A stretch of DNA of 64,000 nt from Bactericera cockerelli (taxonomy: Eukaryota; Arthropoda; Insecta; Hemiptera; Triozidae), in contig CM044955.1 of NCBI GenBank assembly GCA_024516035.1, positions 11,492,050 through 11,556,049 of the forward strand, read 5' to 3'. Both the position numbers and the translations under genes were made by a program. Position 1 is the first letter of the stretch. Each line of letters opens with the position of its first letter. The notes under the pieces were generated by a model. It saw nothing but the letters and a program-made list of their open reading frames with translations. It had not been told where the DNA came from and did not search any database. Shown one piece after another: positions 4,585-51,702 of this stretch.

Positions 4585-4800
4585 TAGGGGCATGTCACAA
4601 AAGATCTATCTAAGGTCGCAGTGACAAAGAGCTTTCGTAGCCGATAGCCCTACCTTTGCCAATACTAATACCAAGGACAGCGGTTGGCAATCTCTTCCAC
4701 CCAACTCTTTATATTGGGTTTTTATATAATTCGGTTCTTATTGCCAATGTAAATACTAAGAGAAACAATCGTGCAATACAAGTTACTTTTGCACTATATT

Positions 4801-5016
4801 ATAATAATAATAATAATAATATCGCCTTATTTATACTGCCCGAGTAGGACTATTATAAAGTCCCATTACTCCAGCAGCAAGCGCAAGACATATTATTATG
4901 TGGTAAAAATCCCAAATGGGAGGATAACATGTCATGTCCCGGCTGGGTTTTGAACCCGCGACCTCTGGAATCTCTGGATTCACAGAGTGTCGCCTTTACC
5001 ACTGAGCTACCGGGAC
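4801..5016 (-). mobile_element. tRNA-derived SINE family A
   Basis: Complete; head at 4935-5016 (ggttttgaacccgcgacctc complement of box B). Confidence 0.9.
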
Positions 5017-5187
5017 ATATATTCTGCACAGTTCAAACAAAATACCTCTTATAGATTCTTAAATTCTTTGAGCTTCATACTTCGAAAAAGGTCCCTAAAT
5101 AAAGTAAAAAATCTCAATGTATGATACTCATTGTGGTGAAGCACAAGGTTCAATTTAACAGTTGGTTGCGAATACCACAAAATATTT

Positions 5188-7402: not shown

Positions 7403-7659
7403 CAGGATATCTCAAGAACGGTAAGAGCTAGAGACTTGAAATTTGGTATACAAATTATTTTTATACACCAGACGAACCACGAAATTTTTGGTTGAAATCG
7501 GACGCAAGATGCGTCCGATTTCAACCTACAACTACACGAAATGTGCTACTTATGCTGTGGCGTATAATATACTTGGTAACGCGCGAACTATTTCGATTGA
7601 CTTGGTGGGTCGGAGCGCTACCACGATCCTTAATGATGACGAAAAAATAAATAATAATA

Positions 7660-7871
7660 TAATATAATAATAATAATATCGCCTTATTTATACTGCCCGA
7701 TAAGGACTATTAAAGTCCCATTATTCCAGCAGTAAGCCCAAGACATATTATTATGTGGTAAAAATCCCAAATGGGAGGATAACTTTTCATGTCCCGGCTG
7801 GGTTTCGAACCCACGACCTCTGAAACCTGTGGATTCACAGAGTGCCGCCTTTACCACTGAGCTACCGGGAC
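7660..7871 (-). mobile_element. tRNA-derived SINE family A
   Basis: Head complement ends at 7871 (ctaccgggac); body and (TAA)n complete. It lies directly 3' of the unrecognised Cys-rich exon, same direction. Confidence 0.92.
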
Positions 7872-7890
7872 AGACTTTTTTTTTTCAAAA

Positions 7891-8081
7891 TCAAATTGCG
7901 TAATGTCCACATCGTATGAAAATCTGTCTTGTATAATTGGGGGAAAACAGTTTACACTCGTAGCTGTAGTTGACATTTTTGTCCAATGTAAATCCCGTCG
8001 CCCAGCAGAAGTGCTGCGGTAGTGACGTGTCGTTCTTGACGTTGAGACAGCAGGCGGCGTCGTCGGCGGTGGGATTACTGC
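7891..8081 (-). CDS. Unrecognised Cys-rich extracellular protein, last exon
   Basis: Read on the - strand, this GC-rich exon begins GC-AGT-AAT after the acceptor CTTACAG and ends at TGA (7891-7893). It encodes SNPTADDAACCLNVKNDTS... to ...RQIFIRCGHYAI. It has five cysteines and three N-glycosylation sequons (NDT, NYS, NYT), which suggests a secreted or extracellular domain. It joins the exon at 8649-8807 in frame through a shared Gly codon. Eleven A residues follow the stop within a few bases, then the head of a tRNA-derived SINE. I do not recognise the family. The TGA may be the true C-terminus, or coding capacity beyond it may have been lost to the SINE. Confidence 0.55.
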
Positions 8082-8088
8082 CTGTAAG

Positions 8089-8647
8089 TAGAGATGCCAA
8101 TATCGAATCACAATATCGATATTTTTGATATCAATATTATCGGAAGCAAAGTATCGATATCCGATATTTATCGAAACGAAAATATCGATATTCCGATATA
8201 TCGAACATCGATATTTTTATTTATTTCATAATTTCATTAGAACAGATGGGGATATAACTTTATTTAGGTGTAGGTGTCACGCTATTAACTCTATTAAGGC
8301 AGGGTCTTAGTCTTAAGTGCATTGTGTTGTAGGCTATAGGTACCTGTACCTATCATATTAATTATTATTTTATTAATGCAATTACCTATAAATCATACAT
8401 TACAATATTTCAGAAAATCAATACGAACTATACAAAGCAACTTAAGACACGTGTTTTGTTCTTATTGGAACTCATCAGTATTTATAGTATTAAATGATTT
8501 TAACCTACAAAACAAGCAAATTTAATCCATTTAGTGTGGGTATTCGATAACGATATTTTTTTCTCTCGATATTATCGGAACCTCAGTATCGATACCAAAT
8601 ATCGATAATATCGGATCCAAAATATCGATATAATATCGACATCCCTA
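8089..8647. mobile_element. hAT-like non-autonomous element forming an intron
   Basis: A 559-bp element with inverted ends TAGAGATG and CATCCCTA, flanked by 8-bp duplications CCTGTAAG (8081-8088) and CCTGGCAG (8648-8655), identical at 6 of 8 positions. This size and end type fit hAT elements. Both subterminal regions are packed with ATCGAT/CGATA motifs in inverted arrangement. It has no transposase. Removing the element plus one duplication restores an uninterrupted reading frame on the - strand. Confidence 0.8.
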
Positions 8648-8648
8648 C

Positions 8649-8807
8649 CTGGCAGGAGATGTACGACGACTTTGGTGTTGCAGCGGGTGTCAGCGTAGTC
8701 GTCTGTGCTGCACATCGGGTTTGTCTGGCTGAGGACGGGCACGTCCGGAGCTTTGATCCAGTCATAACTGTAGACTGCGCACACCTCACTCGGGCACAGG
8801 CTTGAAA
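8649..8807 (-). CDS. Unrecognised Cys-rich extracellular protein, upstream exon
   Basis: A GC-rich - strand exon after the acceptor ttcggcttacag. It encodes SSLCPSEVCAVYSYDWIKAP..., with four cysteines, and ends ...KVVVHLLP plus the first base of a Gly codon at 8649. The next two bases are GT of GTAGGG, supplied by the end of a target duplication and the first bases of the hAT element. Codon composition differs sharply from the AT-rich surroundings, as in the mol exons. Earlier exons, needed to supply the first base of the codon at 8807, were not found. Confidence 0.55.
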
Positions 8808-8884
8808 CTGTAAGCCGAAAAACAATTATATGGCAATGTCCAAAACTTATACACATGGTACCGCATGTACAAGTGTTAAAAACT

Positions 8885-9136
8885 AATGCTTCATGAGGAC
8901 TAAAAAGTCTCATTATTCCAGCAGTAAGCCTGAGATTTACTTAATAATAATAATATCGCCTTATTTATACTGCCCGATTAAAATACTAAAGTCCCATTAT
9001 TCAGTAGTAAGCCCAAGAATATTATTATGTGATAAAAATACCCAAATGGGAGGATAAATTGTCATGTCCCGGTTGGGTTTCAAACCCACCACCTCTGGAA
9101 ACTTTGGATTCACAGAGTGCCACCTTTACCACTGAT
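8885..9136 (-). mobile_element. tRNA-derived SINE family A, head-truncated, with partial tandem copy
   Basis: Body 8940-9060 and box B are present, but the first ~20 bases of the head are missing at 9136. A further body fragment (8885-8930) abuts it. Confidence 0.8.
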
Positions 9137-10880
9137 CAAATGTTTCAATCAAATCAATCAAATGTACAAGGACATTCTGTAATTTGTGTATCAAAACACA
9201 TGAGTCGAAGATGACCTGACCATAAAGGGTTAAAATAAGGTTGTTTATGGTTCTTATAGAGTGTTCGACAAGAATCATACCCTTTAACACCGAAAACAGT
9301 CCTGAGAGCTCTGGATTTTCAATTAAAATCATTTTATAAAATATCTGCAAAATAATTGTTTTAATGGAATAGAAAGGTGGTATAAACCGAAACATGCTAA
9401 AAAGCAACAAAACAAATGTGTTGAAAAAGCCCTTGTGTAATTATTTATTGAAAAAAAAGTATCTCTATTTAACCATTATTTTACATAATCTCTACATCTT
9501 GATTTCCAATACCCTTACCAACATATCAAATCGCTTACCGAACACAACAAAAACAATCAGTAAATATGGAGACATTTTGCTACAAGAGTAGGTATCTATT
9601 GAACTAGTATTTTTTTTCATCAGTGAACCTCATACCATTTCCCAGGCTGCATGGGTAAACAGAGCATTATTTTAGCATCTATGAATCATCTGTAAAAGCA
9701 ATCTGTAAAAGCAATTAGTCTGGCAATCATGATTTTTAGATCAGAATATCGTGTAGGTATTTACTTTTTATTACTTTTTTATAGTTATAGAACATCTTGA
9801 TATTAAAAAAAAAACTCATAGGGTAGAGTTGGTCATAAACCCGACTGGGGTAAAAGGTCGCGCGGCAGTGCGTCATGCCAAGTCCCAGTAAGTGTGGCAG
9901 TGTATGTTTACACAAACAATTTCACCCGGTTATGTTTACACAAACAACTTATATCTTCGATTTTATTGATCATGGAGCTATGAAATTTGGCAAATACATT
10001 CTCTTAATATTAATTAACAATAATAAAAAAAACACATACTAAAAATGTCAAGAGTCTTTACAAAAAACACGCGGAAAGAAGAAATTTGCAATATTGTAAC
10101 TGACTCACTCACTGACAGGATGAGGATATTCCAAGCTACCTGGAAAGATGACTTAAAATAATTATAACTGATTTTCTTGTGGGAGAGAAAACATCATTTT
10201 GTTATGTTTTGAACAATTTTTACGAAAATCTATCCAAGTACCTACTAGTACCTACCTAATTCGTTTGAAAGAAAAACATGAGAAAATGATATGAACTATG
10301 GTTTTGCTTATCTTTCTGAGAATTACACCTATACATATTTTGCACCGAAATAAAATAAATAAATCATATTTTTATGTTTGGGTATTAGGTGAATTTTATT
10401 AAATCGTAAAGATGTGAGTAAAAATGGATGAGGGGGAAAAGAAGAATATAATATATGGAAAATGATAGCGTTCCACTAGTTGTGCGGCGCAGTGTATAAA
10501 AGATAGATCTTTATAGCATAACCATACTAAAACAAGAATCTATTTATAACTTCCACATCATTTTGCGACTGCGACAAACCCGAAGGCCAACTCTTCATTA
10601 ACATTTTCCCGATTCAATAGAAAACAGATGGATTTTTATTACTTTACTCGAGAGCATAACAATTCTAAGTAAATCTACTAAATATATATTTTTCTATGTA
10701 CCTAAGTACAATAGTACATAGATATAGAGTTTCACGTTATACTCGCAGTTCAGTACTTGAACTTTGGCAGATACGATACTGCAATTCCATAGTGGGTAAA
10801 TTCGCTTGTGTGCAAGGTCAAGTCTGCAATGACGAGAGGGGGGGGGGGGGGTCTCGTGGTTTTAACAGTCTAAAATGTCT
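9137..10880. other. Intergenic; no gene seen
   Basis: Contains the inverted relative of 6894-7160 at 9830-10000; otherwise AT-rich with no supported exon. Confidence 0.5.
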
Positions 10881-12888: not shown

Positions 12889-15273
12889 ATATGCTTCCAT
12901 TTCAAATTAACGAAAATTTTCTAATGAATGAATGCATGCCTACCGGGTTTTACGTAAGATTGTTTTAGTTGGACGAAGATAGAAACGATTGAGCTGACAG
13001 GATTTTGTCTACAGTGCGGAGTTTTGTCAATCAGGACGTGGGGATTCCCTACAGTACTTATAAAAGCAAAATTCACTCACTGGTTTTATACACTTGAGAG
13101 CAGCAAAAGCGAATCAAACTTTTTCCTCCACCAAATCTGCGATATCTTCGAAATTACTATTTCTATCGAGTCGTAAGATATCTCAAAATGTTGTAAATTT
13201 TGTTTTCTACAATTTCATAATTTGATTGTTTAAAAAAAACCTTGGCCCGTCGACATAAAGTTTTGCTGACTGGGCGGTCGTCGAAAAGAGAACAACATTC
13301 GTGATTTTTTTTTTTTAATCAGAAAGTCTCTAACTGAATATCTCTAGATTTTCAAACAGGTTAGTCATAACTTGGCTACGCCCCCTGGTCTGTGGATACA
13401 GCATAATTAATTTAGATAATTGAGATAAATTAACCCACACAAATTTTCTTTTGGCAACCTTCTCATTTTTGGTTAACGATCCTTTGACTCTGGCTATACG
13501 GCCTGTGAAGACCGGTGCCCATCTGCCTCGAACAACTTCCTTAGGGAGTTGATCGACAGAATTTAAGCAATACGTCAATGGGGGTCGCACTTGGAAGGTA
13601 GTCCAAATATCAATTTCCCTCCATTCCAGAAACTCCCCTAACACAGTTACCTCATGTGGGTTGGGCCAATGTGTCCGTGCCATCGCTGGAGGAACTTCGG
13701 TATTACAAACCGGGGATCAACCCATCGACTGCAGGATGTTACTTCATTTATCCTGATGTTTTACTAACACTTTTCTTGATTGTCAGTTCCAATTTAAAAC
13801 AATTCTAGTCTTTCTTCAAGGTGAAAAATACACTCAGAATTTTAAAAAACCAAACATACAGTTATCCTGTATCATTACTAGAAATACATATTGATTCCAG
13901 AGGCTTTAGATTGGACTATTTCTTTTCATTACCAAACAAAAAGAACCCGCAATCATCAGTGAAGAGATACAATCGCCGTTGCTCAGGTGTTCCAATCCAC
14001 TAATGTTCTTATGGCGAATCTGAAGTCTCCTTTCCTGTGCTCTTTGTAGAATTTGGGTCCAGTTGGAAGTTCTCTTTGGTTATCATGCTAGCTTTTGAAG
14101 TCACTGCAGACTTATGTGGGTGTCTTCTGGATCAAATTATGGCACTATTTCCATCCTACATGCACAAATGCCCGCACAATCAGGTAACATGTTTTTAGTG
14201 GGAGTTTTGGTGGAGGGAATGATGGACACTTTGTACTACCCTTTTAGTGACCACACTCACATGATTATAAATCTGTGTGACTAACTCAAAATGTTGGCTA
14301 TTAGGCCCGAAGTCATATTAATATCAGATTTCTACTGGATGAATCGACATTTGTTTACTCGCCTCAATAATCTTTTTAATTTGTCCGTCCATTACCAATC
14401 GATGAATCTGGGATCCAGAGTCGGGGAAGGGCACATGAAAGTACTGGATTTACCAATATTAATAGTCATTGGCTCTTGTTGATTTTCTCAGGTATAAAAC
14501 GGTTATTTTTAAAATAAAAAAATGTACGTTTTACTTCAGTTTTGACCGTCCTAGTAGGTAATATATTTAATTTTGAAGGCTTTGATAGGTTTTTTTTAAA
14601 CCAATCAAAATATATGCAATTTAAATAACGAAAATTTTCAAAATGAATATGCTACGGTACGTAGATTAGACAAAGTAAAATTGTCTGACAGATTTCCGCG
14701 GAGTTTGTCATGGAGTAGAAAGTTTTGAATTCCTTTGCTGGTTTCAGTTAGTATCTCTGTAATGACAATGGACAACTTTAGACGCTTGTGGTCTGTCTTT
14801 CAGCATACTTCCTATCTGATGTGCGAGAAGTGACACAATACTTCCCATTTAGGTGCTGGGTCAACATGAGCGCACCGAAAGGTGTCCCTTAAAAACAACT
14901 GTAACCAATTTTTGTCGACTCTAGAGTCCGAAACTGGGACCTTTTACATTTTTTTTAATTCTAGTCATGAAATATTATTGTCTAATTTTTTGTATTTTAT
15001 TGTAAAAATGGCTAACTCGTGAACTTGCAAAAAAAAAAAAAAAAAAAAACATGGCAAGCAAGTATCTCATTAATTTGTTGACAAGATTATTTATCGAAAA
15101 CATTTATGGCGATCAAAAGATAATGGTTTAAAAATGCAATTTTTAAATAATGGACGCGCAAAAGAAAATATTCTCTTTTTTGTAGAAAAGACCCCAGGAA
15201 TTATTAATGTAATAATGAATGTGTGTAAATTATGATTTTTTTATTATTTTTCTTCTTCTTTCAGGAAGCCACC

Positions 15274-15432
15274 ATGATGAAAGGCTTCCTGAGGACGGAG
15301 GGGGGCCCCACCATGTACAACACCCCCAACAGGACGCCCGTCACAGGAGACGTCCAGGCCATCTCCGTGTATCTGGTGTTCTTCACTCTGTTCCTGGCCT
15401 TCCTCATCATCTTCCCTGGAGTCCGGAAAGAG
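15274..15432 (+). CDS. mol: mol coding exon 1
   Basis: Residues 1-53, ending in VRKE just after the first membrane segment. The exon itself begins at 15265 after a pyrimidine-rich acceptor (cttctttcag) and ends at AAAGAG before gtgagt, phase 0. A second ATG follows immediately at 15277, so the protein may start with one or two methionines. Confidence 0.93.
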
Positions 15433-18400
15433 GTGAGTCCTTGGTCCACCTTAATAGATTGTTGTTGTAACCAGCGAAAGCAGTTCCGCGGCACAACTTG
15501 AAAAAAAATGCAAATAATACTAATATAAAAATAATATAATACAAAGGTCCTTCTTCTTTACTTGCCAATATTGCCACTAATACTCTTTATTGGAAGGTAA
15601 CCACCAGGCCAGGTTAATGCTCAAAGCATTTTCTACCACCTAACCCTCAGAGTCTTCTTATTATGTGGAACTATGACCACAAAATAAATAAGGAAAAAAT
15701 CATGCTTTGCGTGAGATTCAAACCAACGGATTTTAACTACCAAGGCACGGTTCGCTAGTTTGTTCTTTCTTTTTATTAATCACCCATCAAACAGGATAAA
15801 TACTGTTTCTTTTCAATTGTCTGAAAAAAATACTGTGTCTTTATCAAAGTCTGAAATAATACTGCTTCTTTTTCATTTTCAAATTGTCTGAAAAATAAAC
15901 ATTGTTTCTTTTTCATTCTCAAATTTGTCTGAAAATAAACAATATTGTTTCTTTCATTTTCAAATTTGTCTGAAAAATAAATACTGTTCTTTTCATTTCA
16001 TTCGCCAAAAATGTCTGAAAAATAAATACCGTTTCTTTTTCATTTTCAAATTCATCTGAAAAATAAATACTGTTTCTTTTTCTTTTTCATTTTCAAATTT
16101 GTCTGAAAAATAAACATTGTTTCTTTTTCATTCTCAAATTTGTCTGAAAAATAAACAAATATTGTTTCTTTTTCATTTTCAAATTTGTCTGAAAAATAAA
16201 TACTGTTTCTTTTTCATTCCCAAAAATGTCTGAAAAATAAATACTGTTTCTCTTTTCATCCCAAAAATGTCTGAAAAATAAATACTGTTTCTTTTTCATT
16301 TTCAAATTTGTCTGAAAAATAAATACTCTTTCTTTTTCATTTCAAATTTGTCTGAAAAATAAACATTGTTTCTTTTTCATTTTCAAATTTGTCTGAAATA
16401 TAAACATTGTTTCATTTTCATTTTTAAATTTGTTTGAAAAATAAACATTGTTTCTTTTTCATTTTCAAATTTGTCTGAAAAAGAAACATTGTTTCTTTTT
16501 CATTTTCAAATTTGTCTGAAAAATAAAACATTGTTTATTTTTTATTCCCAAATTCATCTGAAAAATAAATACTGTTTCTTTTTCATTCTCAATTTTTCTG
16601 AAAAATAAACATTGTTTCTTTTTCATTATCAAATTTGTCTGAAAAATAAACATTGTTTCTTTTTCATTCTCAAATTCAAGAAGACGAAAAACATTGTTTG
16701 ATTTAAAAAAGTCATCTAATTGAATACTTCCCTCGTCTGTTCCAGCGGTTCACAACCTTCATGAGTGTCACCCTCAGTCTCTTCGTGGGAAATGTCATTC
16801 TGGGTAAGTCCAGTGTTATCTTGATGGGAGTTTTAAATAAGTCCACTCAACCTTCTATAAATAGCCCTAAATTTGTTTATGCGACTATAACAATAATAGG
16901 GCCATTAATTGATCTAAAACTAAAAACCAAATAAAAAAAAATTACAAGTTTAAATAAGGTACAAACTTGTGATCCACACTGAATAAAAATATACCTGACT
17001 CAATTTTTTTCAAGACCCAAGTGATGGATTTTGTTTGATCCCTTGTGGATGTAAATCCATTCAAAGGGAATGGCCGTCTACATATTTCATGTTTTTGTTA
17101 ATTTCAAATGTATTTCGTTGCGGAGTACGTGTTAACAGACTCATTCATTCCTAATTAAATCAAATACCTATGTACTTTTGTACATATTGGAGAGCATCTT
17201 CAAGTTCACTACTATCACATGATTCACAAGATTACTCAGATGAGTCTTACCTATTTTTTATGAGATTTTTTTCAATGTCGACTTCCCAAAATATCTACAA
17301 TCACCACTCTAATATACATAAAAATTACCGAGGTGACAATTTTACAAAGTTGTTTGCATGTTTGCAGTTGCTTGATCACCTTCAGTCGGTTCATAGGACA
17401 ACACCTCCGGAGCTATAGTTCCCGATGCATAACCACCTAGCTAGTCCACCTACCGTTCTTAATCACCTTAATCTTGTGCATGAACATAACTACATCATTA
17501 AAAGTCACCACAAACTCCTACGCACTGATATATGAGAGAACTTTCTGTTCATTTATTTAATTTGTCATTTGTAGTTTATCTTTTTATATCAGTAGAAACC
17601 CCGCTATTAATGATCCGATATTAATGAACTTTGGATAAAATGAACTTTTTCCGGCCGATCTTTTTTTTTTTTTTTTCTTCGCGAAGTTTTTACTAAATGG
17701 AATTTCCTCTCATTCTAGATTTCTTTAGCTCCTCACAATAGTTCAATGTACATAAAATATTTTGTATTTATGTACTAATCGTACCTAAATTAACATTCAA
17801 TACATGACCCCCGTGGCCCCGTTATATGTTCCAAAATTTGCCTTATTCCTATTACCTATAATTATATGGAACCCCGATATATGACTTACATAAACCCCGT
17901 TCATGTTCAAAATTTGCCTATTTCCCTTATTTTACTTAATTATATGACCGCATTATGAACTTTTACATTAAACCCGCATTATGAATACCCCTGGTCCAAT
18001 TAGTTCATAATAACGGTTTAACTTATAAACAAAACTTTAGAAAGTATTTTATGTAGGTAGTAAAAGAATAGAACAGTCAGACTGTCTGTTCATTTGATTA
18101 ACGCCGCTTTCACTACATGGTCCTATCACGACGTTCTTTAACTACAATTCGCTGGGCTAAGAATCCAGTACTCAAATTAACCTCAGCCTACCTCAGTAGG
18201 GGCCAGGATAGCAGCAGAATGTGATTGCCATGATAACCATGAATGGACTCGAAACCAGAACGGTCACCAATCATCCATGTACCGTTGAACGTTGCTTAAC
18301 TTCAGTGATTGGATGAGAACTGGTGTATCCATCTCCGCAGGCTGAGGTCAAAACTGTTTATGCTCTAAAATACAGATTTTGATAATTTATTAAATAAAAA

Positions 18401-21400
18401 ATTAATAAATATCCTATGTGCCCGGTACTCTCGTATAATAGCAACACCAACACCTGTGTGCAATAATAAAAAAGGTCTAAAAGAGTTTAAATTTTTATTT
18501 CTTTATTCCCTACAAGAGTAGAGTTTTTAATACTATTTCACTCAGAATAAAAAGGGATAATATATACCTAACAATAATAAATCTAACCGACCTCAGTAGC
18601 TTGATCGATAAGGCAGCGGACTTATAACCTGGAGGTCGGTGGTTCAAGTCCCGGTTTCAGCGTAGATTTAGTAAAGCGAGTTTGAGTAGTTGTGATATCA
18701 CGAAAGTGATTTACACAAATATGATAACTTTTTTAACTTTTAACAATAATAAATCTATTTCTCAGCTCTCAATGATCCACAATTCCACAGCAAAAATGTT
18801 GTGGGTTGGGAAAATATCGAAAATCAACAAAACCAATGCATGGGCGCAGTGGTACGATTCTTGCCAGATTAATCGAGCATTCAATGATTAATCAAGCTTG
18901 CAATAATAACACCTAGTTGTGAGGTAGATAAACATTGATCAAGACAGTTCCGCTTCGTGTCTTTATAACCCAGGAAATCGCTCTGATTTCTCTGATTTGA
19001 AATCGCGATACCGATTCGGTTCCGGAGTCATGAAACTTTTCCAATGTCAAGATCGAAAAACTCAAACATCACAGTGATGTCATTAATGAGCCGTGACTCG
19101 CATCAGCCAAGGTGACCTGGCGGTTCCTGAGTCGGTTCTTTTCATTGTGATTCCATGATTTTCATTGTGATTCCATGATTTTCATTGTGATTCCATGATT
19201 TTCATTTTAATTCCACGATTTTTATTGTGATTCCATGATTTTCATTGTGATTCCACGATTTTCAAATCAAATTAAATCAAAGTTTTTATTCATGTTTATC
19301 AATTTACACAAATTGTTAACACAAGTCAAAATACATATAAATAAGTTAAAAGAAACAAAGAGATAAGAAATAAATATGCAGAACCCAACCCAACTTTTCA
19401 TTGTGATTCCATGATTTTCATTTTAATTCCACGATTTTCATTGTGATTCGATGATTTCCATTTTGATTCCACGATTTTCATTGTGATTCTATGATTTCCT
19501 ATTTTGATTCCAATATTTTCATTGTGATTTCATGTTTTTAATTTTTATTCCACGATTTTCATTGTGATTTCATGATTTCCATTTTAATTCCACAATTTTC
19601 ATTGTGATTCCATGATTTTCATTTAAATTCCACGATTTTCATTGTGATTCCATGATTTTCATTGTGATTCCATGATTTTCATTGTGATTCCACTAGTTTC
19701 ATTGTGATTCCATGATTTCCATTTTGATTCCACAATTTCCACTTTGATTCCACGATTTTCATTTTAATTCCACGATTTTCATTGTGATTTTAAGATAATT
19801 CCACGATTTTCATTGTGATTCCATGATTTTCATTTTAATTCCACGATTTTCATTTTAATTCCACGATTTTCATTGTGATTCCACGATTTTCATTTTAATT
19901 CCACGACTTTCATTGTGATTCCACGATTTTCATTGTAATTCCACGATTTTCATTTTAATTCCACGATTTTCATTGTGATTCCATGATTTCCATTTTAATT
20001 CCACGATTTTCATTGTGGTTCCACAATTTTCATTTCGTGTTTTTTATTTTTATTCCACGATTTTCAATGTGATTTCATGAGTTTTGTTGTGATTCTGCCA
20101 GTATAATCTGTCAGTTTTATTGTGTTTCTGCATGTGATTACACTGAAAAACAAAGTTAGAGGAACGGAAGTTGTTTATCTCACTAACCGTCGAGAAGATG
20201 TAATACCAACTTCTGTTTTATAATAAAAATTATGAATACAGGATCTGAATTATGAATACGTAGAAATTTTGTCTACCTATCAAATATTTTCCAATGAAAA
20301 ATTAAAGCAGCTGCCTACTTAAATATTCTGCCATTTTCCCCTATAACAGCCAAGCATACTACTGTTACAAGCAAAACAGAGGTCAGCGGCAGCGTCGATG
20401 GCACGTTGAATGCACCTGCAGTTCTCATTCTGGCACTGAAGTTAAGTAACGTCTAGCCAGTTTAGGATATGGATGGGTGACCATTCAAATTTGAGTCTTT
20501 GTGACGCTGGCTATATTTCCGTCCCCAGTCAGTCTGGGTGAGGTTAATTTGAGTTGCTGGTTTGTCAGTTCCCAGCGAATGCAGTTTAAAGCGAGGTTAA
20601 ACCCAAATAAAAAGGAAGCAAAACAGACCATGTTGATGAGCGTAATAGGGTAGCTAAAGTAGTTGATTAAAAAATTATTGACTTCAAAAGCACGAGTTTT
20701 GTATTAAAAAATAGTTATACAGGTACTCCTACTGTGATAACTATTGAACCATAGCAAAGTATCTGCAAATCAGCAGAGGTAATCTTGTGTTTCAGCTATT
20801 GTATGTAAGTAAAACAAATGTTTTTTTGGCTTTTGAAAAACGAAAAGTTTTTTTTATAGAATCAATGCGAAATCGAATTGACTCTATTAAAAATCATAGA
20901 AAATAATTAAAGAAGTCCCTAATTTCACTGCAGAGTATGCAGGACAAATAGCCTTTTTTATCGTTCAATTTTAAGTTACACTAAGATGTAATTTCATTGG
21001 ATGATAGGTACTCTATACATATAAGTCTAACTTGAGAGCATATATTTCGTCGTAAATAAGTACGGCTGTAAATTATCTATAGCTACGAGAGCACGTCGCG
21101 TCGATTGCCTATTCATTTACTATTCAGCCAAATATACTAGCGAGGCGAATGAACCTAACAAGGTCCCGAAATATTCAAACAAAAGACCATCGTAGAGTTC
21201 ACATAACGCAAATACATATAATATATGATACATATATTATATGTATCTGCATGTATATGTATGTATTATAGGTAGATACATATAATATATTATGTATCTG
21301 CGTGTATTGTCTGTACATGCTCGGTATGCCTACACCTGACGCTATTGAACCATTTCATTGACACAAGAGGCACAAGCCACAATGTCCGCATTCTCCCGGT

Positions 21401-24400: not shown

Positions 24401-27400
24401 CTCAAATAAATAAGAGGTGCTTTGTTAAACTGTTGGCATAATAGGACTACCTGTCTTGCGCTGACAGTCTAAATAAAGCACTACTTATACTTATAGATAG
24501 TGGACACGGAAAGCAAAGTAAAGTATTCAGTCTCATCACGGATAAATTTTATGATGGTCACCAATCCACTTACTTTTCACGATTGACGTTTCTGAACTTG
24601 GGTGTATTCGTCGTATGACCTCCGCTGTCCACTGATAGATAAACAAACGCGAAAACAAATTATAAAAGAGACGTATATTCAGGCTGGTCAGTACAGAAAA
24701 GTCACCTATAAAATTAAAAAAAAACTAATATAAGGTGACCTTAGGGACATGAAACCATTATATTATATGTCTATCACTATATAATATGTCTACCTAGTAG
24801 GTAATAGACACATAAACTTTATGGCAGTTCAAACATTGTAAAGATAAAGGCTTGATGACTTTATCTCGAGGTATGGCTATAAATTTGTCACTTTCAAGTA
24901 CAAAGGCACTCGAGACTTGCCCGCCATTACTTATTATTCTTATACCTTAACTTGCATGGTTGTAATAATACTTACCAAAGTAAGTCATATTATTTTAAAT
25001 ATGGGTATTGTACCTATATTTAAAGCATGTACCTTGTAACAATAATGCATAGTAACTATATCAGCTAGAATAGATTCAAAGTAAGTTATCTTAGTCCTGA
25101 CCTTATCTGGTTATAATAATTAAAATTCTTTCATCTAGTTACCTGTAGTGTCCATAGATAGTACGTTAGGTGCACTACCGTACAAGTTTAGATTCTGCAG
25201 TGATAATGAGAGGTGCAGAATCTTTTATTCAGATCTGCACAGAGCCTTGAACATTTCAAGCTTAATTAGAACCAACATAGGCAACATATCAAAACTAGAA
25301 TCTATAATATGGACCAAGCACTCAAGAAAGATACAAGTTCTTGGCCTGACTTAGGAGAATTGTGCATGAAGTAACTGTGGCTACGTTGTTTAGTGCACGT
25401 TGCTTGCATGTGAGTAACCCATGTTCGATCCTCGACTAGCTAGACATTTTTATAATAATAATATCGCCCTATGGAAAGTGCCAGAGTAGCACTAATGAAT
25501 CTCATTATTCCAACAGTAAGGTCAACCGTGGGAGAATACTGTCTTTCGAACCCACGACCTATGGATTACCAGACCAACGGCCGACGTATTGACTGCCTGT
25601 CTCGGTAGATGAGTGGATCTACCGAGACAGACTCTGTAGTCTATATGTGGATGGTCGGGTTTCCTTCATACTTATTCTGTTATCTATATGAGACTGTGAG
25701 ATTCACTGAGAGAAAAGAGTAGAAAAAGGTAACATAATTGCGGAGATGCTTGAGAGTAAAGAGAAATGGAATTGCGTAGAGAAAATGGTTAGAGAAATAG
25801 TAAAAATCAAGGATGGAGATAGGTTTAGGGCCCAAAATAGCTCAGAGCCCAAAGCGTAGAGATCCCGAAGTAATGTATCACATATCACACGGTTCCGGGA
25901 TCTCATACGTCTTCTGAGGATAGGTTTTTAGTGGGTAAAAATCCCACACCCCTGGGAGTGAGGTGGCTGGGTGTCTTTAGAAGATTTTTCTATCCTCAAA
26001 TAAAAAAAATCTATATGAGACTATGCAAAAAAAATATCTTAGGGCCGCATTATAAAACAGGATTAGATTTAGTTGAAAGTTGAAAGTCTGCGTTAAGGGA
26101 TAGTGTCCAATTAGATCCAATATAATTCTGTTTTAGGAAATTGAAGCATGTTCTTTCTACCATCTTATCAAGTAGACATACTGTCCTTAAAGAAGCGGCG
26201 TATACGACGAAGATGATCATCTCTCACCAGGTTAATTGATAAAGATGATGAGAGCAAATAAGCTCGAAACAGCTGTCCAGGTATGTTCTGATATTCATGT
26301 ACATCTGGTACAACTTCTCACTATTCTGTTTATACTGAATTCTGTTTATACTGAAGAAAATCCTCACTTCTCACATACCCTCCCACATCAAAATTCTCAA
26401 CTTATTACGCATCAGACAAGAAACCTTCATCTCAACTTTCGCCACAAAAATTTTCCACAGGCAAAAAAACTCGTCGCATGGAAATTCCTGACCACCCCAG
26501 GTCACTAGTTGCCTCACTGGACGCGAGCTATTAGCTGGACCAGAGGTGGTTTCAAGTTTACATTTTTCGTAAGGTCGTTGAAGGCCGTTGGTTGGCTCCC
26601 GTCCTGCATTCCTCAGTGATACTCTCACCCGGTGTTGTGGTGGCTCACTCACTAATGAATAATATGAATATGCTTACTATCTAGTGGCGTATGTTGTGCT
26701 AGGAGGTGGCTCACTCACTAATGAATAATATGAATATGCTTACTATCTAGTGGCGTATGTTGTGCTAGGAGGTGGCTCACTCACTAATGAATAATATGAA
26801 TATGCTTACTATCTAGTGGCGTATGTTGTGCTAGGAGGTGCCTCACTCACTAATGAATAATATGAATATGCTTACTATCTAGTGGCGTATGTTGTGCTAG
26901 GAGGTGGCTCACTCACTAATGAATAATATGAATATGCTTACTATCTAGTGGCGTATGTTGTGCTAGGAGGTGGCTCACTCACTAATGAATAATATGAATA
27001 TGCTTACTATCTAGTGGCGTATGTGGTGCTAGGAGGTCGCTTACTCCACTAATGAATAATATGAATATGCTTACTATCTAGTGGCGTATGTTGTGCTAGG
27101 AGGTGGCTCACTAACTAATGAATAATAGGAATATGCTTACTATCTAGTGGCGTATGTAATGCTAGGAGGTGGCTCACTCACTAATGAATAATATGAATAT
27201 GCTTACTATCTAGTGGCGTATGTTGTGCTAGGAGGTGGCTCACTCACTAATGAATAATATGAATATGCTTACTATCTAGTGGCGTATGTTGTGCTAGGAG
27301 GTGGCTCACTCACTAATGAATAATATGAATATGCTTACTATCTAGTGGCGTATGTTGTGCTAGGAGGTGGCTCACTCACTAATGAATAATATGAATATGC

Positions 27401-30400
27401 TTACTATCTAGTGGCGTATGTTGTGCTAGGAGGTGGCTCACTCACTAATGAATAATATGAATATGCTTGCTATCTAGTGGCGCGTATGAAGAAACTTTTA
27501 TTTTTCTCAACAATTCTGCAATTTTTCAAGAATTCAGTTCTCCTGCAATTAACGTAAAAGTATAAGTATAGTATCTCGTATATAGAATGATCATTGTTTT
27601 GATTCTTATTTTGTGTGAAATACCAGTGGCTTTTGAATGATTTGCTGCTTGTTACGACTATACTCGTAACTTGAGCCTCGTAGTACTTCAGCCTCCGTTG
27701 CGTAACGGTTGTCTCTACTGCCCGTAGTCCAGAGATCCTGAGTTCGACTCCCGGTTGGGGCAGCTTTTTCTAACAGAAAATTCTGTAAAACCCCCGTCCT
27801 GACTCTCTATCTCAAATTAGGATGTTAAAACCAAATAGAATCAACTGGTTACAATAGATCTAATTTCGTCTCAGTGTTAATAATTGTAAGGGTTTCATTG
27901 AAAACTCTGCAACCAGGTCAGATAATAATGCCTACATATTTGAAAGTATATTTTTAAATATCTAATTTCCGGATTTAGCCATTGGCTTTGTCGGGCAACA
28001 TTTCTTATCAATTCTGTGAAAAGGTTAATTCATTTTTCAAGTTTTAAGATTTTGCTGTCACTGTGGCCAAGTGGAGTTGCGTACTAAGCTTGTACACACG
28101 GTGACATAGGCTCGATCCCCAGCGGCGTGGATTTTTTTTCTCATCTAGAATTGGATGTCAACTCATACTTGGAGAGGAATAATGAGTAGACCTCTTTGTA
28201 TACTGAACAGTGGTGGCATATTCATCCCATCGTTATTAATTTTCAAAGTATTGAATAAGTAGATAGCTAAATATTTAGTTGGAGAGGTGTAGCTTAATGT
28301 TAGCGTTTTTTTTATCTAGGAAAGACATTTATAAATTGTGTCCAATGTTTATATGTATAAATATCACAATAATATATTTGAATTGAATAACGAGAAGGAA
28401 CATGATATGTGGGCAAAATATGTGCTTTGAAATTTTGCTGATTTAACCACTAAAGTTGTGATTTAATAACTCAAAGAAACCTCATTGAAAGTTACGAACA
28501 TACATTATTATTATTATTATCTGACCTGGTTGCAGGGTTTTCAATGAAATCCTTAGGTATAACTAACACTGCGACCTAATTAGATCTATTGTGACCAGTT
28601 GATTCTACTTGGTTTTAACGTCCTGATTGAGATAAATAGTTAGGACGGGGGTTTCACCCTCCATTTGCTGAGACTCGTACCAGATACCCACATTAACCTA
28701 CAAATTCTAAAAATATCTTATCCGTCACTGAGTGAATGTAAAACATTAATGGTTTGCCATTAGTGTTGACTTCATAGACATAATTCATCTGGTATTCTAG
28801 TAGGCAGTTTGGTATTTCGTCTCATATAGCACCGTGTCCTTCCGCTTGTCCTGTGGAATAGGAAGTGAACCAAATGAGTCGGGTGACCTTCTCCCAGACC
28901 AGTATTCGGGTTCTGAATACCTACTCACTCGTTCCAACGATCTGATCGATCTGTCAAGATGTTGCGAGATTAGAGCCAAAACTTCGCCGTCCATTAAATG
29001 GTCATGACGAATTGAACAAGTGATTAGTCTTGTTTAATATCACGTGGGATATTCTGTTTCAGGAGAATTTGAATTGAAGTAACCGTGTCTTGAGAATTCT
29101 TCACTAGAGGTATACCCAAAATGTTAACTACCTGGGATAATGTAACGACTCTTGAATGCAATCAATGTAAATTGAACTTAATTTTTAGTCAACAGTTAGT
29201 GTGTTCTCGTCCGACCACTGCAGTTAAGCAACGCCCATCAGCGTGGTCAGGACTTTGTGGGTGACCAATCAAATTAGAACCCTTATGATAGTCGTAGTGG
29301 TTCCTATCCCGGCCCAACCCAGGTTTGGTCAGCTTTATGTATGTTTGTGATAGATAGCTGGATTGTGTGTTTCCACCGAATGGAGGGTGAAACCCGCGCC
29401 GCGTCTCAAATGACCTATGTAAATTTTACAAAGAAAAAAAGCTATAGAATTCTACAGTACTAGTTTAAAGTTTAAATTTCAGCGTCTAGTACTAAAATTT
29501 ATCAGGTCAAATTTAAATACATGGGTTGCTGTTCATTGCCGACATAATAAAGCTGAGTGAGATAAAAGTGAGGCTAGTCTCGAATCACCGCTCGTGCTAA
29601 AGAGACCAATCACAAAATAACCCTAAAATATCTATTTATTTATATATTAAGTAAATTGATGGGAGCTACCCATTATACAATAAATTGAGACCCTAATTTA
29701 ACCGATGAAAAATACAAACCTACAAAATACAATCAATAACATTAAAAAAAATTAAATCTAATCTTAAATATATAAAATAATATATAACCTTCTTGTTTGT
29801 CAAAAAATAACCAAACGTCTATTTTTATATAAATAAAATAATTAATTTACTCCAAGTGAATAGTTTCCTTGACGTTTGACAAAAATAAGGTAGTCAAGCT
29901 CTTCTATCGAACCAATATTCAGCCTTGTTATTTCAGATTAAATCCACTAAAAAGTAGAACTGGACTTGGCAACGTCTCAGCATTGCAAAAATATTTGCAA
30001 TATTTAATACCTGGGCAGACATTCAAGTTTCATTACACAACGTATAGCGTACTCGTATTTACACCAATAGTCAATTTCTCCATTTATTGGATCATGTTCG
30101 TACCTAACTCATTATGGACTATTATAAATACCCGATTACTGCTGCACACACGCAATGTGAACTCTGATTCCACGACTGGTAGACTACTTTACGACTAAAA
30201 AGAAGTAGTAAACTATATGGTAGAAAAATATAAAGTCCATATTTTCTTCATATTACCACCAATTTGTGGAATAGTTCATTAGTTTTGCTTAAGGGTAGTA
30301 GCACATGCTGTAGACATGATTATCATTGAGGTTGGATATTTTGCAGTGAACAACAAAATTGACATTGATGTATGTAATAAAGGTTTTCGTTACTCCATGT

Positions 30401-33400
30401 TTTTTTTATGTTTTTTCATTGGTGGTCTTTCATATAAAAGAGAGAGGAGACAAGAAAATTGAAACCAAACTACATCTGTTTTAATGTACCTATGTAGATG
30501 TAGATATCGCGAAAAAAAAAAACAGATTTACAATTTTAGAGATGAAATAATTATGTTCTACCATTTGGCTATACAAGGTAATATTTTCTAACTTTTTCTA
30601 GGGAAAAATTTGCTATTTCAAACGAAGGCATTGTTCATAGCCTTCGAAAGGATTTTTTACCCTCTAAAAAACCCCCCCTTCTACAATTTTTTTTTTTATC
30701 TTTGCTAACTTTGGCTTTTTTTTCTTTTCTTTTTTTGGCATTGGGGCAAAATAACCCCATACAGCCATATCCATTTGGCTTTACAAGGTAATATTTTCTA
30801 ACTTGTCATTAAAGTTTATGTTAGATTGTGATTAAAGTGCATCTATTTCTTTCTTCCAGTGTCAAAATGTGGCTCGGGGTGGCATGTGGGTAAGACAGAG
30901 ATCACAAGCTCCTACCGTGCTTACTCTAGAGAACTGATCAACGCAGAGCTCGGCGCTTTCATTGGACTGAACCACGTCAATATTACCTTGAGAGGTAAGT
31001 GCGTGCTTGTGAATGCAAGGGCGGAATTAATAGACGTTTTTGTAATACTTCTGTGGCGCTAAGTCACGGATTGCGTACTGTGTAAGATAGGGAAAATCGA
31101 CACTTGCCAAGGACTTAAGTTAATGATGTTGTCTATTAATTCCGCCCTAAATGTCCATTTGGAACGATGGAACTGTCCCTAAGATTCACAAATTCAATTC
31201 ACAGCGGAGTCAAATATTTTGTAAACAATTACAGTTAAAGAATTATTTAATAATGTTTGGTTTTGTTTTGGTTTGTTCTTATATTTGTGTTAATCACTTT
31301 CATGATGTCACAACCACTCAAACTCGCTTTACTAAATCTACGCTGAAACCGGGATTTGAACCAACGACCTCCGCGTTACAAGTCCGCCGCTGTTACAATC
31401 GATCAGCTACCTACTGAGGTCGGTCATTTTTTTCTTCTCAAATATTTTAAGCTGTTGCCTGTTTAGTTTGAATCATGTGACCAAAGACATCAAAGAGAAT
31501 AACCGCCCATTGCTTTTCAAAATTTTACTTTTCATTTTTTCACGATTTTCATTTAACTAAAATAATACCAAAAGCACTCAAAATCAATTGAAACTTCTCA
31601 CGAAAAGTACAACAGTACTTCATGGAGATGTAATAGGAAGTGAAATGTATATGAAAACAAATAAAGATACTTATTGTTATTATAATCCTACCAATACTTA
31701 TTATAATCCTACCAGTAATGTATGCACTATTACTATACTCGTATAATATTGCACATTGCATATACACGTTTTCAGGTGTTCATACAAAAAATCAAATTTA
31801 TTTTCAAGTATCTAGGTACCTCATTATCCGTAAAAGTTTTATTTCTTAGAAATACCTTTACGCGTTCATACTTTATAGTAGTCCATAGATTCAGACTACA
31901 AACACTGATAATCACTTATGATGCATAATTTGAACACTGAAAATTTTGTAATAACACTATGGACAAGTTTTCAATTTTGCGTTTTGCTATGGAGAAATGT
32001 AAGAACTAATACAAACTTTTGATGCTGATTGCATCTATTGATTTATTTTGCCCTACGAGCAACACAACCACCTAGTTAAATTATATTGGTAAAACAGCAA
32101 GAGGTTATTTGTATGTTCTACTGTAAATAAAGTGATTATGCAATGTGCGAAACTTTTGAAGATTTATTTTATTTCTAGTACCGTATTAATGATGTGTTCT
32201 AATTGCCTATGTACTCACAATGGCGAATTTTATGACATAGGTTGATTGCACATAAGATGTATGCTTTACACATAAAGTTCACCCTAATTATGTTATGACA
32301 GGTTGATTACACATAAGATATACGCTTTACACATAATGTTCGCCCTAATTATGTTTCCTTTATAAGGAAGCACAATTCATTGCCTTAATATTATTTTAAG
32401 GGCCATTGCCTTAATATTGAAGGGTCATTATCTTAATATTGAAGGGTCATTGCCTTGATATTGAAGGGTCATTGTCTTAATATTGAAGGGTCATTGCCTT
32501 GAATTTTTTTTTTTTTTTTAATTTTTGTGGCTCTCTCTCCCTAAGGAATACTTCTAAGGATTGAAGGGTCATTGCCTTGATATTGAAGGGGCTACTCGTC
32601 TTGCTATTCTGTGTGCTTTCAGCTTTGCCGACCGACAATAGCACCGAGGTGGAGGACATTGACTTCAACGAGAGGTTCTCCTGGGTGGGCTCCTACGAGA
32701 TGGGCGAGAGCTACCGGGAGGGTCTGGTACGGGGACTGCCCTTCCCTATCCTCACCGTGGCCGAGTACTTCAGTCTGGGGCAGGAGGGCTTTGCCTGGGG
32801 CGGCCAGTACCGGGCGGCGGGATACTATGCGGGCGTCTTCCTCTGGTCAGTACTCTCCCTTCTAAGTCTGTCCCGGTAGCTCAGTGCTAAAGGCGGCGCT
32901 CTGTGAATCCAAAGTTTCCAGAGGTCGTGGGTTCGAAACCCAACCGGGACATGACAAGTTATCCTCCCATTTGGGATTTTTACCACATAATAATATGTTT
33001 TGGGCTTACTGCTAGAGTAATGGGACTTTAGTAGTCTTAATTGGGCAGTATAAATAAGGCGATATTATTATTATCATATGAACGGAGAAGATCGACCCCC
33101 CCCCCCCCCCCTTCATTTAATTTTCATTGAAAGAAAATTCTGTGTGTGTGCTTTTTCCTCTTATTTAAGGTTTTTTCAGTTTAAACCACGAAACAGTTGA
33201 AAGTGTTGCATGAAATGGCTGATGAGTTCTTTGTGCTATTATACAGTATACATACATAGAAATGACTGACTAATTTTCTAATGGGTGAGAGACTGATTCA
33301 TAGATGCTTCAAATAATGTACGCTAGTTATTTTTTATTAAATTCTTTTTTTGATATAAAAAGACAAAAGTGCAGTACAGATTAAATACAAAAAAAAAAAA

Positions 33401-36400
33401 AAAAAAATGGAAACCATGTAAACAATAAAAAGGAAAAAATAGATAAATATATTCACACATATTTTGTCATAACTAAATGAACAACTCGTACATTACATAC
33501 GTAAGGAAGTTTACAGATTTCAGAGCTAGTTATAACACGATGCGATCGAACTTTATTTATGCATAATTTAATTCGATTTTAGTAGATGAAGTTTGACGTT
33601 ATAGAAAATCTCCCTGTTTTCAGATCCTGCAAAAAATAACATTGATCTTTTTAACATGAGAAAACCCTCTGACCATTACGTAAGTTATAATTTGTTATTG
33701 AGGGTTGTAGCAGAATAGAGATAATGCATTTTGTACTCTATCAGCTTGTTTTTAACCTTTTATCATAAAGTAAGAGGCTAAGGGCCGAATTATGAAACAG
33801 GATTAGATTTGATCTACGTGGACACTATCCCTTAACTCGGGCTATAGTTTCTTGTGATTGGTTGAAAATTCCGACTTGAGGGCGTGTCAGGCTTAGATTA
33901 ACTTTTATCCTGTTTCATAATTTGGCCCTGAGACTGTCTTATAAGCTGGAACGCGTGAATCCAGGGATTTTGAAAGTACCCAAATAATGAATGATATTCT
34001 CATTCCTAATACAGTAGAACCCCGTTATTATGAACTAATTGGGACCAGGGGTAGTTCATAATAGCGGGGTTCAATGTAAAAGTTCATAATATCGGGGTTC
34101 ATAATAAAAGTTCATAATAATCATAGGTAAAAGAAAGGGAAATTAGGCAAATTTTAGACATATGAACGGGCGTACATGTATTTGAATGTTAATTTAAGTA
34201 CAGATTAGGTATATAAATACAAAATATGTATGTTCATTGTACATAGATCTATCGTGAGGATCTTTTTTTTGTTTTTGTTTGTTTTTTTTTTAACAATTTT
34301 TATAGATGTTTATTATACAACAAAGGTTTATAACAATCGTGAGGATCTAAAGAAGTCAGTAATTCTTGAGAAATTGGAGAAAATTTCCATTTCAAAAAAA
34401 ATATTGCGGAAAGAAAAAGTTCTTTTTATCCGAAGTTCATAATATAGGGGTTCATAATAACGGGGTTCTACTGTAATTTGATAATTTTCTTCTAAAGCAC
34501 TCACTAACTGATCCCATTTTTTTTTTTTTTTTTTAATGGCATTATGGCAAGGTGAGGCAATATGGCATTATGGCAAGGCATACTCAGCCCCTTCCCCCCC
34601 GTAACTCCTCCTCTGTCCACAGGGCGGCCCTGGCGGCCTGGCTCCTCATGAACCTCCTACTGGTGGTAGTACCCCGCTACGGAGCCTACGCCATGACCAT
34701 CACCGGCGTCCTCATGCTCCTGTCCGCCGCCCTGTACCACTGCATGATGCCCAAGGTGCCGCTGGTGGTGCGATTCGAACTGAACCGGGTGCTGTCCTTC
34801 CAGTACGGGTGGTGCTTCTATTTGGTGATCGCGGCTGGTAAGGCTGGAGACAATAGATAGGGCCTTTTTTTATTTATTTTTTATTTTATTTTATTTTATT
34901 TTTATTTATTTATTTATTTTATTTTGTCTTTCTTTAACTTTCTTTCTTTTTTCTCTTTCTCTTCTTAAACATTTATCTCTCTCTTTCTCTTAATTTTTCT
35001 TTGCTCTTTTGTTTAGATTTAAGTACTTCTATTTGGTGATCGCGGCTGGTAAGACTGGAGACAATAGGGCCTTTTTATCTTTCTTTCTTTTTTCTCTTTC
35101 TCTTCTTAAACCTTTATCTCTCTCTTTCTCTTAATTTTTCTTTGCTCACTTATTGTTTAGATTTAAGTACTTTTTAACTTTAATTGTATATAATTTAGTA
35201 TTTATTGACTTTGTACAAAATTCACCTGAATATTTACTTATGTACAAATAAAACATTAAATTAAAAAAAAAAAATTAAAATTGAATATCATAAATCGAAG
35301 CAAAAGTAATAATAATTGACACAGAAACTAAAACAAGGCTGCATCCCATGACACAAGGACCATACTTCATAGGTGTGGCTCTTAGTGTGGGATGACGACA
35401 GCCAATAGAAACTAGCATAAGTTCAGTTAAATTTTTTATGAATTATGTAAACTGTCATCGTTATATTAAATTAGATTTTATGTCTTTTTTGCTGATCATT
35501 TAACATTTTTTTTACATTGTTGTGTTACTTACAAAGAAAAGTGTTATGTTATTCACACGGCGAGCTTTGGATAGTGGTTTCTTAGAAGCTTTAGCTTAGG
35601 AAAAATACCTTTGTATATGTTATCCTGTAATTAATTAAATAAATAAATTTAAAAAAAAAAATGATTTGGTACCTAGTGGTAATAATGTTCAGCATAATTT
35701 TCTAGCGTCTGAAATGGGTCTGCAGAGTGTGATACTCTCGTATAACTACTCCAGTCTTTGTAAGTATCGTTTTACTTTACTTCAATAGTCGAGGCCTTAG
35801 TTAAGTGTATATTAGGGCGGAATTAATAGACGTTTTTTGTAGTACCTCTGTGCCGCTAAGTCACGGATTGCGTACTGTGTAAGATAGGGAAAACCGACAC
35901 TTACCAAAGACTTAAGTTATTGATGTTGTCTATTAACCCGGGATGAGTACGGTTCGGTTTTGTAACGTATCCAGTACACGGTAACGTATACGGTTGTGAG
36001 AGAAATCTCTCACAACTTTTTTTTTATAGCTTTATTAGGAGGACAAAGTACAGGTAACATTATAAAATTAAGAAAAGAAAAAAAAAACAAACAAATGACA
36101 AAATAAATAAGTAAAGAAAAAAGAAAATAACAATAATGTCCTACCTAAAGGGCGGGGTTATTGCCTGTGGCAATCTCTTCCACCCAACCCTTGTACTGAT
36201 TGCCGGTTAATTCCGCCCTTAGTCTTGTTGAGATTTTCTGTTTCTTCCCAGGCTTCCTTTGTTTCATCATTGGTCTCATAATATCCACGCTGGATCTCAT
36301 GTACCCCCACAAGTTCTCCACCATACTGGAGGTGGACTACGACACTCCCTACGACCGTCACATCATCATCGAAGACAGCAGCACCAGCAAGAAGCGAAGC

Positions 36401-43046: not shown

Positions 43047-44317
43047 TCAAGTGGTCCTCAACTGATAGTCTCCATTCTGAGTGATGTATCTGACCCAGGG
43101 CAGCGCCTGGTAGCCACTCTTCTCTATGATCTTCAAGTACCGCACCTGTATCCCTGATGTGGTGAAGTAGGGAATCTCGAACTTGACCTGGATGGGAGGT
43201 TTCCCCTCTGCGTCCTCATTCTCCACGCTAGGGAGGCCGAAGTGAGCTCTCATGAGGTACTCCTTACCTCCGGGGAATGACTTGATTGTCCAGGTGATAG
43301 CGCTTTGTTCCGGCGTATACTTGACACTGCCTATTGTTGTCTTGAACTTGGGGGAGTCCGCATCTGCTGGTACCGGGATCACAATCTCCACGTTGTTGGC
43401 AGTGGATCTTCTCTTGAACTGAGACTTGGCTTTGATCATATACTCAACTCTCGAGTGTACAAACCTCTCGATCACGCTTTCAATCCAGATCAGTGGTTTG
43501 ACATGGGTATTCAATCGATAGGACATGAGTTCAAACTCGCCATCGGGTGGTATGAACGAGATGGTGCGATCATTCTCAAAGCGAGAGAGTCTGACACACT
43601 GGTGGAACTTGACATCCTCCAGCTCCACAGACTTGGACTTGCCCCGTCCTGTACTCTCGAACAGAACCTTATCATTGAGTCCCAGCCGGAGTTCTGGCAT
43701 ACCTGACAGGTACACCCGCATCTTGATAGCACCTACTATTTCACTGCGTAGGACATTGCCATTCGAGTTGGCCAGGAGGTTCACGCTCTCAATCACATCC
43801 AGGAACACCTCGTTCTTCCTGTACTTGATGCCCTCGGACCTCCAGGACACAGCATTGGTGACTGCCATGGGGATCCTGGGCTGGAATCTCCAACTTGTGT
43901 CCTTCCTGTGTGATGTACTCCTGCAGGATCTTACTGTCTGTGGTCTGGGGGTAGCCAAAGTCAATCAGCTCATCAAGGAGTTCATAGATTACAACGAAGT
44001 TGTCTCGAATACTTTCTTCTTCTATTTCTTTGAAATATTCTGTGAATACTCTCACAATCTTGTTGAGGAAGACAAACACAAGCGCTATATTGGCATTCTT
44101 CTTGGTGGTTGATACAATGAATAAGTTGTTGTACTTGATGTAGGCGAATGTGCAGTCACCTCGTCTGTAGGAGGGGGGTAAGCATGCCCTCTTCCTCCTT
44201 CTCCATGAGGAGTGGCATGAACTTTTCTATGACTCCCATCTCCACATCCCCCCGGTAGTTGCGGGAGATGAGGACCTTGCCCTTCACATCCAGGATGTAC
44301 AAGGCAGAGGCAGACAT
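43047..44317 (-). pseudogene. AP-1mu: AP-1 clathrin adaptor mu subunit (AP-47), intronless, two +1 frameshifts
   Basis: From ATG at 44317-44315 to the stop at 43047-43049, this - strand block is a nearly full AP-1 mu. AP-1 mu binds Tyr-based sorting signals and works in trans-Golgi/endosome clathrin coats. The longin part (VKGKVLISRNYRGD, DNFVVIYELLDELIDFGYPQ) and the mu homology domain (NAVSWRSEGIKYRKNEVFLD, FIPPDGEFELMSYR, ending RYITQNGDYQLRT) are strongly conserved. One extra base after the LLQT codons and another after GHKLEI break the frame; discounting both gives 422 residues, the family length. No intron interrupts it. A plausible acceptor at 44375 suggests a 5' UTR intron, which favours a real locus with assembly indels; a young retrocopy is the alternative. 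No poly(A) tract follows the stop directly. Confidence 0.75.
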
Positions 44318-48289: not shown

Positions 48290-48401
48290 TAAAAAAGTAG
48301 ATGATATCATCATCATAGGGTGGCATCATCGTGAACGATGGTAGCCAGACAGTAGAGAAATGACTCAGCACTTTCTCTACAAGGAGGCTAATAATTGACA
48401 A
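48290..48401 (-). mobile_element. Left half of the repeat split by the 6.2-kb element
   Basis: Complement of 2712-2810: catcgtgaacgatggtagcc and aaggaggctaataattgaca. The other half resumes at 54592 (aagggcccccagaaccaagc). Confidence 0.75.
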
Positions 48402-51010: not shown

Positions 51011-51702
51011 GATTAATGCATGGAAATTGGTACACTTTAGAACAGTAAACTTTTTAAAGTAGAGAAAAATTTCTTTTTAGTTACACCCTAAAACTATGAT
51101 GTAGGAACTTTAGAAGAGTCAACTTGTTGGACTTTTATCAGAAATTGTTAGATATAATTATTTTGTGTAAATCATCAATTTGTAGTCACTTTCACTTATC
51201 CCATGTCAGGTTCAATATGTTTTGAGGAGGGAGGCAGCTTCAATAGGTTTCTTCAGGTTGAAGCTATGTTGGATTGGATGCACAATACATGTAAACAGGT
51301 GGAAAATATCATGTGGATTTCCTCCATAGATCATAATTATTTTAGTAGTAGTATCTATAGTATCTATAGATCAATATATTGATTGCAATCAATAGATACT
51401 AACACAAGGGTATGTCTGTGAAAACCAAACACTTTTGCAAAGAAGAAACTATAAAAAGATTACACATTACACCTATTATGATATGATAAAACAACTTACG
51501 ACTTTTAAAAAGATTACAACATTTACCTACAGGAGATTTTTTTTTAATTTATGTTTAACGTCGCATAAAACAAAGAACTTTAAAAATTAAAAACAAAATG
51601 CGTGCACGCTCTTAAGATATGGAGCCAGGCGCATTGCGGTGTTGCCACAGGGTATTGGATCTCGTTCGGAGACCGTTCCGAGACCATGTACTCGGGACGT
51701 TA

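Follow-up and report, generated by a model that had tools for sequence, protein, structure and literature searches.

How new introns arise has long been asked, and few clear cases of their birth are known from animals. The locus described here raises this question in an unusually legible form, with the target, the duplication, the element ends and the splice sites all readable from the sequence. It lies in a 64-kb stretch of DNA (hereafter the window, whose positions are used throughout), in which two predicted minus-strand exons face each other across a short insertion (Table 1). Did this insertion become an intron, did it disrupt a gene or fill an older intron, or does it merely lie between frames that belong to no real gene? 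We propose that a short non-autonomous hAT-like element probably entered a coding exon, where it immediately served as a spliceosomal intron of phase 1.

Table 1. Positions of the features discussed in the text; a slash marks a splice junction.
Feature	Position	Strand	Details
Predicted spliceosomal intron (element plus one duplication)	8082..8648	-	567 nt; phase 1; GTAGGG...CTTACAG
Predicted 5' splice site, core CAG/GTA	8646..8651	-	extends to GTAGGG, 8643
Predicted 3' splice site, CTTACAG/	8082..8088	-	inside the acceptor-side duplication copy
Branch-point-like word TTGAT	8130..8134	-	A at -50
Putative non-autonomous hAT-like element	8089..8647		559 bp; ends TAGGGATG... and TAGAGATG...
Terminal inverted repeat, donor side	8633..8647	-	TAGGGATGTCGATAT; 12/15 identical to opposite end
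Terminal inverted repeat, acceptor side	8089..8103	+	TAGAGATGCCAATAT; complement ...CATCTCTA is the pyrimidine stretch preceding the acceptor
Sub-terminal arm, ATATCGATA repeats	8547..8631		76% match to 8113-8191
Sub-terminal arm, ATATCGATA repeats	8113..8191		partner of 8547-8631
Target-site duplication, acceptor-side copy	8081..8088		CCTGTAAG; minus strand CTTACAGG
Target-site duplication, donor-side copy	8648..8655		CCTGGCAG; minus strand CTGCCAGG; its final G (minus strand) begins the intron
Possible exon 1	9539..9575	-	37 nt; ATG, hydrophobic leader; phase 1 end at TCG/GTAAGC
Predicted intron 1	8808..9538	-	731 nt; acceptor CGGCTTACAG/TT; contains SINE copy 8942-9135
Predicted exon 2	8649..8807	-	159 nt; GC 0.57; phase 1-1
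Predicted exon 3, portion showing coding signal	7957..8081	-	
Uncertain exon 3 tail	7891..7957	-	may be coding up to a TGA (ending at 7891) or give way to an additional intron from a weak donor near 7957

Anatomy of the element and its target site

hAT elements carry short terminal inverted repeats that begin with YAGNG. The ends found here begin with TAGGG and TAGAG, match at 12/15 positions and are flanked by an imperfect 8-bp target-site duplication (6/8 identical), which bears out the preliminary description of a 559-bp element with hAT-type ends and 8-bp duplications. Judged from its ends and the length of its duplication alone, the element is best called hAT-like. No transposase frame was found inside it, and since none of its stop-free stretches exceeds 72 codons, the length of the longest, we regard it as non-autonomous.

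The window was scanned for TAGRG...CYCTA pairs spaced 80-3000 bp apart, with flanks matching at >=6/8 and inverted repeats at >=10/15 positions, and the element was the sole pair recovered. As a control, first-order Markov windows were scanned in the same way: at the looser inverted-repeat level (>=10/15) at least one pair occurred in 15 of 100 windows, and at the level observed here (>=12/15) two pairs occurred across 400. Further inward, the inverted sub-terminal arms (115 bases each) gave an alignment better than those of all 500 shuffles, and the four occurrences of ATATCGATA in the 64-kb window all fall inside the element. A blastn search of the same window detected no second copy of the element, and the 25-base word from its terminal inverted repeat had 0 matches among viral contigs.

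The two copies of the target-site duplication differ at two adjacent positions, and either form would encode sense codons. The preliminary description had read this difference as a change toward a better acceptor. The difference itself stands; its direction does not, as nothing in the window polarises the copies. Given this lack of polarity, and since the alternative form, CTGCCAG, likewise ends in CAG/G, we discarded the idea of an acceptor improved by selection. Were the donor-side copy ancestral, the empty target (8649-8655 plus 8078-8081, minus strand) would read CTGCC-A-GGCAG, an 11-bp palindrome.

On the coding strand both copies have AGG as their last three bases, an ending that is scarce among 8-mers: it occurs in 1 of the 270 contained entirely in exon 2 or in exon 3 as far as 7957, and in 29 of 1321 from the AP-1 mu and RYBP coding sequences of the window. 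A random insertion would therefore rarely yield such splice sites, and an AGG-type target would be expected for an insertion surviving in a living gene.

Splice signals at the element borders

The predicted intron, 8648-8082, corresponds exactly to the element plus one duplication, as previously claimed. Its donor lies at the joint between duplication and terminal inverted repeat and its acceptor in the other duplication copy, and the former proved very strong and the latter clean. We could also confirm that the flanking minus-strand exons read in frame across the element, their phases being compatible and the codon series CTG-CCA-G/GC-AGT unbroken. Element borders that coincide with splice sites while the frame is kept are what would be looked for in a transposon-derived intron, and both are found here.

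The donor, CAG/GTAGGG, is predicted to form a U1 duplex of -11.2 kcal/mol, compared with -7.1 kcal/mol for the next best GT within the element. Only 7 of 3533 minus-strand GTs are equal or stronger, the donor itself counted and the outer 100 bases of the window excluded. The acceptor is preceded by 174 AG-free bases. Among 3584 AGs, again including the acceptor, 232 match it for a C or T before the AG together with pyrimidine share, 6 for AG-free distance, and 2 for distance and pyrimidine share combined. Within the last 70 nt of the intron the yTnAy pattern is matched by TTGAT and by one further word at -4, too close for use.

The predicted gene

Our gene model comprises three exons with matching phase-1 junctions, open from ATG to TGA over 128 codons with 9 cysteines, and its predicted product is a small secreted cysteine-rich protein. 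Exon 1 was chosen by eye because its phase fits; its donor has a U1 energy of -8.2, equalled or surpassed by 56 of the 3533 GTs. The exons had been described as GC-rich, which holds for exon 2 (0.57) and less so for exon 3, whose GC content to the TGA is a moderate 0.48.

Coding potential was assessed with a codon score whose training set was 482 codons taken from two genes of the window, AP-1 mu and RYBP. The null excluded every stretch that overlaps these two, the predicted gene or one of three DUOXA pieces. The claimed frame of exon 2 was the top of six, with a score of 15.3, attained by 12 of 1102 other stretches in the window. In exon 3 the claimed frame was again the top of six, with a raw score of 7.2 up to 7957. 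When the tail as far as the TGA is included, the score falls to 2.7, a value reached by 74 of 1096 other stretches, and the 3' end of the gene is therefore uncertain; the possible donor near 7957 has an energy of -4.4 kcal/mol. Exon 1 scored -3.7 and its claimed frame was not the top of six, although 12 codons are little informative either way.

Searches for relatives were negative within their scope. No Pfam family matched the predicted protein at E <= 1, the four PDB matches (best E 0.5) are at chance level, and a tblastn search for a second locus in the window gave chance-level matches only. Of the 16 pattern stretches that exon 2 produced in viral contigs, none was confirmed. No relative of its 95-aa core was found in the protein collection by a search requiring three shared 5-residue words. 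As this collection includes the proteins of at least one psyllid, the latter result counts somewhat against the gene; on the other hand, a fast-evolving protein could escape a search with such a requirement.

Genomic context

The RYBP frame of the window is 96% identical to contig protein P0121 and 87% to another record. Among the matches listed, it shares 92% identity over 84% of the query with Cyamophila willieti (Psylloidea), while the other recognised named hemipterans among the 120 listed stand at 50-61%. The host is therefore probably a psyllid. The AP-1 mu coding sequence (43053-44317, minus strand) has no intron-sized gap and shows frame changes near 44161 and 43884, so that it may represent either a processed retrocopy or assembly indels. 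Three plus-strand frames, at 15229-15501, 32565-32879 and 34537-34860, match parts of the family of dual oxidase maturation factors; they are spread over ~19 kb, and the portion of the profile that falls between the first two did not turn up.

A direct repeat of ~2.6 kb (48401-51010 and 51702-54319, 98.9% identical) is either a recent duplication or an assembly duplicate, and large tandem arrays occupy 26639-27482 (66-bp units), 15866-16676 (41-bp) and 19395-20034 (20-bp). A tRNA-like SINE family of ~210 bp is present at 7654-7877, 4796-5017, 8942-9135, 32864-33079, 36469-36676 and 60867-61076, the copies being 90-95% identical to 7654-7877; fragments also occur around 62037-62403, 25452-25520 and 8893-8930. 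One of the copies lies directly 3' of the predicted gene and another in intron 1.

How the insertion may have become an intron

We propose the following course of events. The 8-bp target in the coding exon would have had AGG as its final coding-strand triplet. Upon insertion, the upstream duplication copy followed by the start of the terminal inverted repeat (TAGGG) would have formed the donor CAG/GTAGGG, while the opposite end of the element (CATCTCTA) would have provided the pyrimidine stretch and the downstream copy the CAG/G of the acceptor. Because the duplicated AGG triplet supplies both junctions, excising the element and one copy would restore the original codons. The earlier claim of an element-made intron stands as far as anatomy, frame, splice-site strength and insect host are concerned; the insertion history, the actual splicing and the gene being alive are what we infer.

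A living gene is favoured by the observation that the duplication copies carry two changes, yet frame damage in ~375 coding bases is zero. Under a log-uniform divergence prior (0.001-0.3), which was our choice, and with the exon copy evolving at a quarter of the free rate, a living gene is favoured over a dead one by a ratio of 6 to 15, depending on the assumed indel rate. We consider this ratio supportive, not decisive.

We hold the intron reading to be the best of those considered. Its main rival is that the insertion disrupted the gene, splicing being absent or inefficient and the allele null or weak, perhaps polymorphic. The element has stops in all three minus-strand frames, and translation indicates that a read-through protein would end ~24 residues into it. 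The sense strand of the intron also holds five poly(A)-signal words, all within the element (four AATAAA and one ATTAAA; intron 1 has one of each). Furthermore, the donor sits in a stable predicted structure, since the two ends of the element are predicted to pair as an extended RNA stem in which it is included (z -7.5; 0/100 shuffles fold as well). However, U1 could bind before this stem forms, because the donor is transcribed ~550 nt ahead of its pairing partner. The failure of the predicted protein to find a relative in the protein collection would likewise fit a damaged gene. What makes disruption unlikely, in our opinion, is that top-ranked splice signals coincide precisely with the element borders, that targets ending in AGG are rare, and that the frame is intact although the duplication copies had time to diverge.

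Neither a Pfam family nor a protein relative would be expected if the exons were not part of a real gene at all, but chance open frames or a relic with the element merely between them. This reading would also be in line with the ordinary coding score of the full exon 3, the negative score of exon 1 and the absence of AATAAA or ATTAAA from the 491 nt from the TGA onward. Yet it would leave to coincidence an exon 2 score that so few other stretches reach, the first rank of the claimed frame in both exons 2 and 3, and three exons joined by matching phase-1 junctions, with a leader-like exon 1 (chosen by eye) and a good first donor; we hold it to be distinctly improbable. Finally, an older intron might have occupied the position and been replaced or filled by the element, and phase-1 introns are common in genes of secreted proteins. 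A filled intron should have left residual flanking sequence, but between exon and element there is no base beyond one duplication copy, and we therefore give this explanation very little credence.

Comparison with known systems

An insertion that turned directly into an intron would have a close parallel in maize, where insertions of Ds/Ds1 (hAT) are reportedly spliced as introns, for example in sh2-m1 and Adh1-Fm335. That system shares with the present locus the hAT superfamily, the 8-bp duplication and the removal of the element from the message as an intron. In contrast to those plant mutant alleles, we are dealing with a natural psyllid-like insect locus, and the piece removed here would be the whole element plus one duplication. 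Studies in which Ds gives rise to a maize intron, or behaves as one, are listed among the references of PMC3260210.

According to passages of Gozashti et al. 2022 (PMC9860276), Introners are non-autonomous and often have target-site duplications or terminal inverted repeats. In some of them one splice site is brought by the element and the other is taken from the duplication; in one case (Florenciella) the insertion site supplies both. The element described here resembles them in being non-autonomous, in having terminal inverted repeats and a target-site duplication, and in that its predicted splice sites would likewise be carried or co-opted. However, Introners are families with many intron copies, whereas a single copy was seen in our 64-kb window. 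The same passages state that most Introner-bearing lineages are aquatic and that, among animals and land plants, Introners occur in two groups only, both animals. It is doubtful, though conceivable, that our element belongs to a hAT-like mini-transposon family that repeatedly makes introns in a terrestrial animal, namely a psyllid introner family. Were this true, TAGGG...CYCTA ends would be pre-adapted for GTAGGG donors and pyrimidine-rich AG-free acceptors, every AGG-target insertion would be spliced cleanly, and the range of introners would extend beyond mostly aquatic lineages.

Among insects, the Doc1053 intron of D. sechellia GM26034 is described in passages of Yenerall et al. 2011 (PMC3296678) as made by a Doc element, and the same passages cite earlier examples of introns made by transposons, from maize, rice and Oikopleura. 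Like our candidate, it is an insect intron derived from a transposable element with target-site duplications. Doc1053 is, however, a retrotransposon, and five amino acids were gained with it; at our locus the junction would restore the codons exactly. Passages of PMC12124190, on human intron gain, name introners and contain no hAT case. In an open-access library, searched by titles and abstract starts, we did not find a hAT-made insect intron, nor any open-access paper in which the terms introner and hAT occur together. As a hAT element serving as an intron and a transposon-made intron in an insect both have precedents, we regard this locus as a candidate of a known kind. It suggests a rule that can be tested genome-wide, namely a sense-oriented insertion at an AGG-ending target. 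If spliced, it would be for animals, and at a natural locus, what the Ds introns are for maize.
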